This document shows positions 57,027 through 60,553 of a stretch of 64,000 bases of DNA, one piece after another. This DNA is from Clostridiales bacterium (GTDB lineage Bacteria > Bacillota > Clostridia > Saccharofermentanales > Saccharofermentanaceae). Location of the stretch: positions 62,001-126,000 of the forward strand of contig JAFSPU010000008.1 of NCBI GenBank assembly GCA_017451265.1, given 5' to 3'. Numbering within the stretch: position 1 is the first letter of the stretch; each line of letters opens with the position of its first letter. The notes under the pieces were generated by a model that did not search any database, was not told where the DNA came from, and saw only the letters and a program-made list of their open reading frames with translations. Both the position numbers and the translations under genes were made by a program.

Positions 57027-60000
57027 TTAGGTAGGGTCCTGATCCATCTGAACGAACTCGTCAGGGTTTGCTGCAGCGGCTGTCTCGGCTGTTGCCGGGT
57101 CTGCTGCACCATCCACTGTCTGTACCTCACCGCTAACGGCTGTGGAAGAATCAGCGGAAGCAGCTCCTCCTACCTGGAATGTAACGGGGATAGTGCCGTC
57201 AAGAACACCTACAGGAGGCAGCAGGAGTGCGTCTCCGGAGCTCGGTGTGTAAGAAGCATCAAGTCCGTTATAGTTCAGGATGATCTGAATTCTCGGATCG
57301 GATGTATTGGCAATATCATCGATACCGTAAACCGTATTGAACAGATCCCACCATGTTCTGTATCCGATGTACTCGGAGAACTGGAATCTACCGATCGGGT
57401 AAGAAGGATCCTGTGACGTTGTCTGTACAGGTTCTGTCTCCACTGCGATCGTTGTCTCTACAGGTGATACATTAACATCTGTCTCGGATACTTCGGCAGT
57501 TTCCTTACCGCAAGATCTTACGATGGCGCTGATGAGGATGATCAGGCAGACAACACATACGATAACGAATGCAAGGAACATATAACCGTTGCGGTTGAGC
57601 CTCGGGATCTTTCTCTTTCCGCCGCCGTTACCGGATCCGGAAGCAGAGCTTCTCGGTCTGGCAGCAGAAGACTGAGGCCTTCTTTGCATGGGCGGAACAC
57701 CCTGATTTGTAGGCTGCTGGCCGTATCCATAACCGCCGTTACCTGCCATAGTCGCACCTCCTGCTTCCATACCCATATTATCAGCGGAAGCTGCTGCCGC
57801 CTGGGCACCTGCTCCTGCCATATCGAAAGCACTGTCATCGATTCCGAGAATCGAGTTGATCCAATCGTCATCAGAAGAAGGAGGTACTTCTCCGGGTGCA
57901 CCGGCAGGATTGTCATATCCTTCCTGATACTGTCCGGGAGTATAACCGTACTTGCCTTCTGTATAAGGCTGCTCGTCGTAAGGTCCGTAAGCCGTGGGAC
58001 TTAAGGACTCATAAGAAGACTGATCTGCGGCCGGAGCCTCAGGAACCGGTGCCTGTGCCTGATAATCATTGAACTCAGGAACCGGTGTTTCAGCCATATT
58101 CTCGTTATTTACCATCTGACCATAGGAGTAAACACCCTGATCAGGAGTATCAACCGGCACATCTGCATTGGCAGCAGCGGTAGGGGCCTGATAAGTGTTG
58201 GCACCGAAGACCGGCATCTCAGGGATCTGCTCGGGAACAGGTGCAGGGATATCATTGACAGTCTCTGCTCCGTTCTCGAAAGGAAGGCTGAAATCGTTAC
58301 CGGATTCAGGCTCGACGCTTACATTGTTCTCTTCGTTCGGCTTGTCGTAGTCTTTGCTCACGGGGAACTCCACTCCTAACTTATCAGTTTCTTCGATCTG
58401 CGGTTTATCGCTCTGAATATCGAATTCGGGAACAGGGATGCCTTCGGAAGCCTTGATAAGCTCCTCATCGGAAGGCGCTGTCATGATGCCGGTCTCACCG
58501 AATACGAGAGGCTCGGCATTCTGCATTTCTTCCGTATTTCCTACGCTGTAAGGATCGAAGTCTGCCTTGGCAGCTTCAGCAGTAACGTCGGAGATAACGG
58601 CGCTGTCTGCTTCCTGCGAGAATACGAAAGTGCCCTCAGCCGTCTGCATGGGAACAGGTGCGGGTGCAGGCGTCTCGGCAGCAGGCTGTGCTGCAGAAGT
58701 ATCAGCAAAAGGATTGAAGGGTGACTCAAAAGGTGACTGTGCTGTAGTCTGCGCAGCAGGAGTCTCCACGACAGGGGTCTCTACCACAGGAGTTTCGACA
58801 ACAGGTGTCTCAACTACGGGAGTCTCTACTACAGGTGTTTCAACTACAGGCGTCTCGACGACAACGGGAGCCTCAACAACAGGAGCCTCCGGTACAGGTG
58901 TCTGCTCTGCAGAGAAAACGATCTCAGGCATTACGGATGCCGAAGCCCGGGAAGCAGCAGCTTCTCTATTGGCAGCCTCTTCACTCTCCTTGGCAAGCTT
59001 AGCCATGAATGCGGCATCAAGCCTCTCTACGGGCTTGGTCTTATCTGCATCAGTATCAGCGTCAAAAGAAAGCTCTGTCTTGGATACTGTCTCCATAGCA
59101 CCTGCAGCTGCAGGAGAGAAGGAAGCAAAGGGGTTTACCGCCTCGCTTACGAAGATGGAGTCAGCAGCAGAAGCTGCAGCAGTTCCTGCGGAAACTGTTG
59201 TTGCGGCTGCGGCTGCAGTTGTTGCTGCCTGCGAAGCTGCGGCTGCACCTGCGACGGCTGTACCGGCCGCTGCAGTAGCCTTAACGGAATCCTGGAACAA
59301 TGTCTTCATTACATCCTCGGCACTTACCTCGGATACATCCTTATTAACGGAAGGATCAAGGAACTGAACGAAGCTGTTCTCCTTGTCCTTAGGTGCTGCG
59401 TCTATAACGAGGCCCTGGTTGCCTGTAGCCTGCTGGTTTGTAGCAGGAGGAGCCATATTGCCTGCAGTGTCTCCGAACATTACGAAGGAGTCGGATCCCT
59501 GAGGCTGATACTCTTCGATCGTCATGCTGCCGGCAAATCCGGATGTGGCGGCTGCATTGGCAGCTGCACCTACGAGACCGCCGTCCAGAGTGGACTGGAT
59601 GCTCATTTCGGAAGTGTCCTCTTCCTTAGCCTTCTTTCTGAAACCGAACAGGCCTCTCTTCTCATCGGATACTACATCCTCTACGAAAGAGATGGCGAAC
59701 TGCATCGGTACGTCAGGCATTCTGGCAGAGGCCTGTGTGATGATAACGCCGGCTGCATCGCACTGGTCATCAGCCTCATCGAGGATTCTTAAGATCTCGC
59801 GCTGGCCCAATGCGTCATAAACTTCCTTGTTGCAAAGGATAATGCAGTCATCCTGTGCCAATGTAAAGAAGTTGGACCACAGGGCATTAGCTGTCTTGGA
59901 TGAGCAGTAATACAGGAAATCTGCAACTCTGTTACCCTTGGCGTCGATAGGCTCCATCGGGATGCCTGCGTCTGTCAAAGGATAGAGAGTGTCGTCTCTG

Positions 60001-60428
60001 TAAAGGAAAGCGAGACCTGTACCGATAGTTACGGCAAAAGCCTCTGAATCTCTTACGATGATACCGGAGAAATAAGGAGATCTGTCATCAGCCTCTGCGA
60101 TCCTTGACTTACCCGTAACATCAACGGCAGTAGTCAGGAAGCCTTCGATCATCTCATCGATCTCTTTACGGCCGAACTTGACCTCATTACATGTTCCGCG
60201 AAGCTCCGGCTCATAAGGCGGCATCATGCCGGGCTCATAATTAGCAATCTTAGGATGTGCAAATACTGAAAGGAAATAGCCTCTCTCGTTCTTCTCTATT
60301 GTTATATCCGCCTGACGTGCTTCTCTCTTACCAAAAAGCCTTCCGTCAAGATAAAATGCATCAGTTAAAGTTTTGGAAGGAAAATATCTGGCCGTAAGTG
60401 TGCTAGCCAGATTAGTTAAAACCGCCAT
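57027..60428 (-). CDS. Transmembrane protein: degenerate PP2C domain, long repeat linker, external LysM-like domain
   Basis: 1133 residues. Residues ~40-260 align by eye with PP2C phosphatases: IEKNERGYFLSVFAHPKI (for VADGMGGH), FAVTIGTGLAFLYRDDTLYPLTD (for NVGDSRAYL...LT) and DDCIILCNKEVYDALGQREI (for DLLLCSDGL). The metal-binding aspartates (DG, SDG, DN) are missing, so catalysis is unlikely. Residues ~270-940 are low complexity, with seven copies of VVETP near 521-556. A helix at ~950-972 spans the membrane, and ~1019-1075 (YIGYRTWWDLFNTVYGIDDI...LLLPP) resembles LysM. GGAGG lies 6 bases before the ATG. Monocistronic. A wall-sensing pseudophosphatase receptor is inferred. Confidence 0.75.
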   Translation of the reverse strand: MAVLTNLASTLTARYFPSKTLTDAFYLDGRLFGKREARQADITIEKNERGYFLSVFAHPKIANYEPGMMPPYEPELRGTCNEVKFGRKEIDEMIEGFLTTAVDVTGKSRIAEADDRSPYFSGIIVRDSEAFAVTIGTGLAFLYRDDTLYPLTDAGIPMEPIDAKGNRVADFLYYCSSKTANALWSNFFTLAQDDCIILCNKEVYDALGQREILRILDEADDQCDAAGVIITQASARMPDVPMQFAISFVEDVVSDEKRGLFGFRKKAKEEDTSEMSIQSTLDGGLVGAAANAAATSGFAGSMTIEEYQPQGSDSFVMFGDTAGNMAPPATNQQATGNQGLVIDAAPKDKENSFVQFLDPSVNKDVSEVSAEDVMKTLFQDSVKATAAAGTAVAGAAAASQAATTAAAAATTVSAGTAAASAADSIFVSEAVNPFASFSPAAAGAMETVSKTELSFDADTDADKTKPVERLDAAFMAKLAKESEEAANREAAASRASASVMPEIVFSAEQTPVPEAPVVEAPVVVETPVVETPVVETPVVETPVVETPVVETPVVETPAAQTTAQSPFESPFNPFADTSAAQPAAETPAPAPVPMQTAEGTFVFSQEADSAVISDVTAEAAKADFDPYSVGNTEEMQNAEPLVFGETGIMTAPSDEELIKASEGIPVPEFDIQSDKPQIEETDKLGVEFPVSKDYDKPNEENNVSVEPESGNDFSLPFENGAETVNDIPAPVPEQIPEMPVFGANTYQAPTAAANADVPVDTPDQGVYSYGQMVNNENMAETPVPEFNDYQAQAPVPEAPAADQSSYESLSPTAYGPYDEQPYTEGKYGYTPGQYQEGYDNPAGAPGEVPPSSDDDWINSILGIDDSAFDMAGAGAQAAAASADNMGMEAGGATMAGNGGYGYGQQPTNQGVPPMQRRPQSSAARPRSSASGSGNGGGKRKIPRLNRNGYMFLAFVIVCVVCLIILISAIVRSCGKETAEVSETDVNVSPVETTIAVETEPVQTTSQDPSYPIGRFQFSEYIGYRTWWDLFNTVYGIDDIANTSDPRIQIILNYNGLDASYTPSSGDALLLPPVGVLDGTIPVTFQVGGAASADSSTAVSGEVQTVDGAADPATAETAAAANPDEFVQMDQDPT
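58760..58864 (-). repeat. Seven tandem 15-base repeats inside the pseudo-PP2C gene
   Basis: Each copy encodes Val-Val-Glu-Thr-Pro (GGNGTNTCNACNACA on the plus strand). Synonymous positions differ between copies, so the peptide and not the DNA has been kept. Confidence 0.85.
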
Positions 60429-60523: not shown

Positions 60524-60553
60524 ATGAAAACGGCCGTCCGATTACCGGACGGC
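60524..60553 (-). terminator. Rho-independent terminator of the DUF885 gene
   Basis: Stem GCCGTCCG/CGGACGGC with a five-base loop, followed on the minus strand by CGTTTTCA. Confidence 0.75.

Follow-up and report, generated by a model that had tools for sequence, protein, structure and literature searches.

The window considered here, a stretch of 64,000 nucleotides from a Clostridiales bacterium (assembly GCA_017451265.1, contig JAFSPU010000008.1, positions 62,001 to 126,000), contains a gene coding for a protein of 1133 residues, in which a cytoplasmic domain with the fold of the PP2C protein phosphatases, deprived of its canonical metal site, is connected by a long linker and a single transmembrane helix to an outside domain of the LysM type. 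Related proteins occur nearly throughout the order of the bacterium, presumably the Saccharofermentanales, and this membrane protein is probably a signal reader derived from an enzyme. Taken as a whole, the best explanation, with a probability of about 0.5, is that of a membrane-spanning pseudophosphatase which couples the state of the cell wall to phospho-signalling.

Taken alone, the N-terminal domain of the window protein finds no sequence match in Pfam or the PDB and no NCBIfam match above cut-off. Its relation to PP2C emerges from the comparison of profiles, A1 being built from 19 diverse N-terminal domains of the order and A5 from relatives in the class. A1 matches A5 with an expect value (E) of 8.3e-25 and A5 matches canonical PrpC with an E of 7.8e-19, and the direct comparison of A1 with PrpC gives an E of 1e-6 and a probability of 91, as against a probability of 0.8 and an E of 0.07 for two unrelated profile pairs. 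Among PDB sequences, A1 retrieves no PP2C chain and two chance-like rows only; A5 matches PP2C chains (E 8e-14), and the canonical PrpC profile matches L048, a protein of the order (E 5e-6). The model of residues 1-258 (predicted local distance difference test, pLDDT, 74; predicted template modelling score 0.80) adopts the PP2C β-sandwich fold, which is borne out by Foldseek and VIA. The domain is accordingly linked to the PP2C/PPM superfamily by a statistically supported sequence relation, both directly and via its class relatives, and the PP2C fold that a first-pass annotation had recognized from the letters is matched in profile comparisons and predicted structure alike.

According to portions of a classification of bacterial PP2C phosphatases (PMC12088040), the binuclear metal centre is formed by motifs 2, 8 and 11, and a third metal is bound at motif 5. 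Eight motif positions were aligned jointly in 16 canonical PrpC proteins and 138 distinct domains of the order, the canonical PrpC L077 being excluded and the window protein being carried under the identical L001. All 16 PrpC proteins possess Glu, Asp, Asp, Gly, Asp, Asp, Asp and Asn at these positions, which are occupied by T22, D23, A57, H58, T137, K201, V240 and P241 in the window protein. Throughout the order, the Glu of motif 1 is mostly Thr (106/138) and never Glu, and the Asp next to it is retained in 134 domains. The Asp of motif 2 is replaced in every domain, by Thr (59), Ala (52) or Ser (27), and that of motif 5 by Gly (47), Asn (20), Lys (19), Ser (15), Thr (15), Arg (12), His (5) or Ala (3), with a single Asp and a single Glu. 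At motif 8, Lys (100) and Arg (32) predominate over Tyr (2) and Ser, Cys, Gly and Asn (one each), Asp being absent, and motif 11 displays Val (61), Thr (59), Ala (6), Ile (4), Leu (3), Asp (3) and Glu (2). None of the 138 domains has more than one of the Asp residues of motifs 2, 8 and 11. The three Asp ligands by which a catalytic PP2C is defined (motifs 2, 8 and 11) correspond to A57, K201 and V240 in the window protein and, the Asp of motif 5 being replaced as well, the canonical metal site has been lost. The earlier statement that every metal-ligand Asp is replaced thus holds for motifs 2, 5, 8 and 11 but not for motif 1, where the Asp of the NED sequence is kept (D23) beside the altered Glu position; no intact ligand set occurs elsewhere in the alignment. 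A by-eye reading in which the window protein keeps an Asp at motif 11 was ruled out by the alignments, which place V240/P241 there. For most class relatives, the alignment puts the Asp of a GDIT sequence at the Asn position of motif 11 and not at the ligand position. Two of the three order rows with an Asp at motif 11, L048 and L053, form part of a single family (f2).

The rest of the chain agrees with the layout first proposed. The low-complexity linker, initially put at 670 residues, consists of 687; linker length differs widely among relatives, and that of the window protein holds a 15-base tandem repeat (VVETP). The single membrane helix coincides with the strongest 19-residue hydrophobic stretch of the protein (residues 952-970), which recurs in relatives; its limits (949-972) were set by eye, and the sequence KRKIPRLNRNG that precedes it suggests, also by eye, an inside-positive orientation. 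The external LysM-like domain is upheld by a model of residues 1007-1083 (48 rows, pLDDT 88) displaying the β-α-α-β order of LysM, and by an hhalign comparison with ten LysM segments of relatives (E 1e-8), each belonging to a protein in which Pfam recognizes LysM. Two results weigh against this assignment: a direct Pfam scan of residues 977-1133 reports no family, and the structure matches of the ectodomain are weak, though many of them are LysM proteins. Within the genus of the window, the ectodomain has a divergent form, GYRTWWDLF..VYGI..YNGL..GD.LLLPP, with one match per genome in 13/13 genomes, which leaves no second protein sharing it as a partner in these genomes, and no match in eight genomes from other families of the order. 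Depending on the relative, Pfam identifies the outside domain as LysM (L032, L042) or bacterial SH3 (L048), or reports none above cut-off (L038, L044). In part of family f2, an SH3-type domain stands in the place of LysM, as identified by Pfam in L048 (SH3_3) and by eye in L053, the pseudophosphatase domain being retained.

A full-length search gave matches in 56/59 genomes, a few of them solely in the linker or C-terminal part. With the A1 profile, the N-terminal domain was found in 176/188 genomes of the order, in 101/106 of the good ones and in 30/30 genera; absent from 12 genomes, it is not strictly universal. The 80 loci kept from 111 confirmed relatives include records named Saccharofermentans, Mageeibacillus, 'Ruminococcaceae' and unclassified clostridia, many of rumen or gut origin and some from isolates, among them the cultured YRB3002 and YAD3003 (loci L143 and L196). 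Frames cut by contig ends excepted, the relatives keep the same layout, consisting of the N-terminal domain, a linker ranging from about 60 to 800 residues, one transmembrane segment and an outside domain. Against the seven nearest relatives (L123-L129), the ratio of non-synonymous to synonymous substitution rates (dN/dS, Nei-Gojobori) is 0.014-0.036 in the PP2C domain, 0.12-0.17 in the linker and 0.03-0.10 in the LysM domain, values which are rough because dS approaches or exceeds 1 in many pairs; for the PP2C domain of the more distant L139 it is 0.059, and L131 is saturated. An inactive enzyme under such constraint has a function to fulfil. That the gene is a decaying, pseudogene-like remnant, as the loss of the catalytic residues might suggest, can practically be dismissed in view of this conservation, of the long open frames of the relatives and of the near-universal presence of the gene. 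Besides the pseudophosphatase, three genomes of family f4 of the same order possess a second, canonical PP2C of 541-576 residues (L278:566-2296, L279:1011-2723, L280:1317-2942) with a hydrophobic stretch at its extreme C-terminus.

The architecture of the protein and the loss of its canonical metal site are nearly certain. In the mechanism proposed for the pseudophosphatase, which has close to an even chance of being correct, the LysM domain would bind wall glycan or a wall precursor, and the PP2C-fold domain, presumably unable to hydrolyse phosphate, would keep a binding role via its old substrate groove, with Lys or Arg now standing at a former metal ligand. The motif-8 residue, basic in nearly all relatives, could hold phosphate without a metal. 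The ligands might be either phosphorylated substrates of a PASTA kinase or a kinase or phosphatase itself, and the wall state would be linked in this way to Ser/Thr phospho-signalling, or phosphoproteins would be held at sites of wall synthesis. Some observations speak against a coupling of wall state to phospho-signalling. The basic residue of motif 8 is not universal (Tyr in two, and Ser, Cys, Gly and Asn in one each of the 138 domains), and most of residues 1-45, including the motif-1 region, has a pLDDT below 50, so that the pocket is not fixed by the model. The neighbouring genes vary between families and offer no partner, and a pair formed by a PF00481 PP2C and a PASTA kinase was not found in the window's own assembly, which is 69.5% complete.

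The streptococcal protein MapZ binds peptidoglycan, and a comparable tether between wall and cytoplasm constitutes the main rival, although a rather unlikely one. The PP2C fold would then serve only as a docking surface for another protein, of division or elongation, without any link to phosphorylation, and the LysM domain would place the protein at particular peptidoglycan sites. MapZ, as described in parts of PMC7055233 and PMC4931243, resembles the window protein by its cytoplasmic N-terminal part, its one transmembrane segment and its extracellular C-terminal domain, but differs by the nature of the outside domain, and no PP2C fold is mentioned in these parts, the comparison being one of descriptions. 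Such a positioning role would also agree with residues proper to the order domain that are invariant or nearly so, e.g., in YLDGR, NID, SN and LGQ, and with the absence of a kinase from the neighbourhood (386 proteins in 37 loci). It is disfavoured by the basic residue found in place of the motif-8 ligand, which suggests a phosphate site, and by members of the wider branch that accompany a Ser/Thr kinase (L270, L271). Alternatively, the domain could still be an enzyme, endowed with a rebuilt site containing a metal or Lys, Arg or His and with weak phosphatase or other hydrolase activity. The strong conservation of the domain and the retained acidic residues D23, D28, D91 and D194 would fit this view, which is improbable since the residues now standing at the canonical ligand positions vary from one family of the order to another, an unusual situation for a rebuilt active site.

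A PASTA kinase close to the gene, envisaged in the first-pass annotation, did not materialize. At an E cut-off of 0.1, a home-made profile of nine kinases matches none of the 386 proteins encoded around the gene at 37 loci of the order, the last 20 kb of the window included, and at a cut-off of 0.01 it matches none of the 1931 open reading frames of the window and L031-L066. PASTA proteins (40/40) and PP2C recognized by PF00481 (35/40) occur elsewhere in the genomes of relatives, away from the pseudophosphatase; in G017, for example, a PP2C is situated at 288 kb, with a kinase-like frame (by eye) and PASTA repeats following it at 286 kb, and the pseudophosphatase is located at 843 kb. The window's assembly contains one PASTA match, in a frame of 813 residues, and one PF13672 match. 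The latter (L067:1399-2280, on contig C10 of G000), the sole one of this genome, is a PP2C of 293 residues that has a hydrophobic stretch (by eye) near its N-terminus and an altered motif 1 (RPSQQDS).

Searched with A5, 310/393 genomes of the class give matches, many of which are probably plain PP2C as judged from frame length; the survey covered 30 loci from this search and 35 further stretches, some proteins being taken in full. Sequence comparison relates the window protein to a clostridial branch of PP2C which has active-looking members, soluble as well as membrane-bound. L257 is a canonical soluble PP2C of 276 residues, and L272 combines a canonical PP2C with a transmembrane segment and two Pfam LysM domains. 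L256 keeps the Asp triad of motifs 2, 8 and 11 together with a transmembrane segment and a Pfam LysM, and L253 has the same triad with a LysM-like stretch seen by eye, without a Pfam report. In family f9, six rows possess the triad, and 15 others (genera g35 and g67) lack the motif-11 ligand Asp and vary at motif 8. The window's order stands at the end of this series, with all ligand Asp residues lost or nearly so. The layout first proposed, with a degenerate phosphatase domain and a LysM-like module in one chain, is real but not special to the inactive enzyme, relatives in other clostridial families possessing it with intact Asp triads.

The triad is intact in 36/90 tree rows, and at least six changes of its state are required on a quick tree. 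Such counts do not distinguish gain from loss, but an intact ancestor is the simple reading. The 24 rows of the order form one clade (Shimodaira-Hasegawa-like approximate likelihood ratio test 100), and the branch leading to it is very long (about 2.2 changes per column). In both trees, which are quick, lack bootstrap and have open forks at 21/68 and 33/87 inner branches, this clade joins L229 and L249 with a support of just 82-86, and the program warns of a meeting of long branches. A second membrane group (L281-L284, L286, L287 and L293) consists of PP2C-like proteins of 526-1016 residues with Thr/Pro-rich tails, devoid of Asp at motif 8 (7/7) and with Glu or Asp at motif 2, which is changed in five of the seven; it is perhaps an independent pseudophosphatase lineage.

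Two loci of the branch place a PP2C beside a kinase. At L270:7345-11130 (G281, family f49; the same gene as L257), the soluble canonical PP2C is flanked by YukD/WXG100 genes on one side and by a Ser/Thr kinase with DUF5050 on the other, and the locus is, from its gene content, of the type VII secretion type, with its own kinase-phosphatase pair. At L271:5103-11648 (G194, family f11), a PP2C-transmembrane-Big_2 protein (transmembrane segment by eye), a kinase with Big_2, an FHA protein and a T2SSE-type ATPase form one run, kinase and phosphatase carrying matching outside domains (Big_2). Parts of the branch thus represent kinase-phosphatase pairs, some of them in secretion loci. An origin in type VII or Tad secretion, raised by these two loci, was set aside because YukC occurs in just 2/40 relatives in the window's order, without co-occurrence with type VII secretion. 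That the window protein belongs to such a machine, in the manner of the pseudokinase EssB, is very improbable for the same reason, the gene itself being present in nearly all relatives; moreover, none of the six neighbours scanned in the window is a secretion gene, secretion families not having been searched among all 386 neighbours.

A PASTA kinase, such as PrkC or StkP, has its signalling domain inside and a wall-binding module outside, and Gram-positive PP2C phosphatases are regarded as soluble proteins that act as its partners. The window protein, with a phosphatase-derived domain and LysM in place of kinase and PASTA, looks like a mirror image of these kinases. It is tentatively suggested, with odds somewhat below even, that wall-facing receptor phosphatases mirroring the PASTA kinases (PP2C inside; LysM, SH3 or Big_2 outside) form a class of their own in clostridia, and that several lineages converted the enzyme into a metal-free phosphoprotein reader encoded by a core gene, the conversion being complete in the window's order. 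If so, a membrane PP2C with its own wall-binding domain would provide the phosphatase side of signalling with its own wall input. The series leading from canonical (L257, L272) to triad-only (L256), partly degraded (the 15 rows of f9) and fully degraded proteins (the order) would allow a test of what a pseudoenzyme keeps, and a hypothesis becomes available for a gene present in 176/188 genomes of the order, the N-terminal domain of which is recognized here by no Pfam model.

To our knowledge, no order-wide bacterial PP2C pseudophosphatase has been reported earlier. PrpC, Stp1, PstP and tPphA differ from the window protein, which lacks the Asp of motifs 2, 5, 8 and 11, is fused to a linker, a transmembrane segment and LysM, and has no adjoining kinase gene. 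PstP is a membrane protein, said in PMC12088040 to have a putative PASTA domain, but it is an active phosphatase. TAB1 and PHLPP2 are eukaryotic pseudophosphatases of PP2C fold, whereas the window protein, in which the metal site is lost, is bacterial, spans the membrane and possesses an outside LysM. EssB/YukC, as covered by part of PMC12599244, is likewise a degraded signalling enzyme joined to a transmembrane segment, but has a kinase fold and belongs to type VII secretion. The literature searched, in which most subscription papers fall outside coverage, yielded no bacterial PP2C pseudophosphatase, no PP2C-LysM protein and no wall-facing receptor phosphatase class, in agreement with the earlier remark that no described protein of this layout is known; the words LysM, pseudophosphatase and inactive do not occur in the main text of PMC12088040. 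The parts, i.e., the PP2C fold, pseudophosphatases such as TAB1, and LysM, are known; the way in which they are combined, the spread of this combination and the graded series appear to be new.

Table 1. Position of the pseudophosphatase gene, its encoded domains and adjacent sites in the window.
Feature	Position	Strand	Basis
Whole gene, 1133 residues: PP2C-like pseudophosphatase, linker, transmembrane segment, LysM	57027..60428	-	Open reading frame, ATG start
Cytoplasmic PP2C-fold domain, residues 1-258	59655..60428	-	Profile comparison, model, Foldseek, alignment
Pro/Ala/Glu-rich low-complexity linker, residues 259-945	57594..59654	-	Poor conservation, alignment of 76 long relatives
15-base tandem array in linker, VVETP units (by eye, translation)	58757..58889	-	Repeat search
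Single transmembrane helix, about residues 949-972	57513..57584	-	Hydropathy 3.45 over 952-970; same stretch in relatives
Outside LysM-fold domain, residues 1007-1083	57180..57410	-	Model pLDDT 88; hhalign E 1e-8
Terminator-like hairpin, 14 pairs and T run, directly past stop codon	56965..57000	-	Site search
Upstream terminator-like hairpin, between pseudophosphatase gene and DUF885 gene	60533..60553	-	Site search

Of the neighbours scanned in the window, those upstream code for a DUF885 protein and an AMP-binding enzyme; the products of those downstream are a class-V aminotransferase, a phosphoglycerate dehydrogenase, a GH32 protein and a glycosyltransferase. Depending on the family, the surroundings are of the aminotransferase/serA, radA/ispD or alaS/HIT type (labels partly by eye). 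The region contains four terminator-like sites for 3.1 expected by chance, and six promoter-like sites for 3.9, an excess that is not clear. With a hairpin on either side, the pseudophosphatase gene may be a single-gene unit, such hairpins not being clearly commoner than chance in the region. Its ATG is preceded, at a distance of six bases, by GGAGG.

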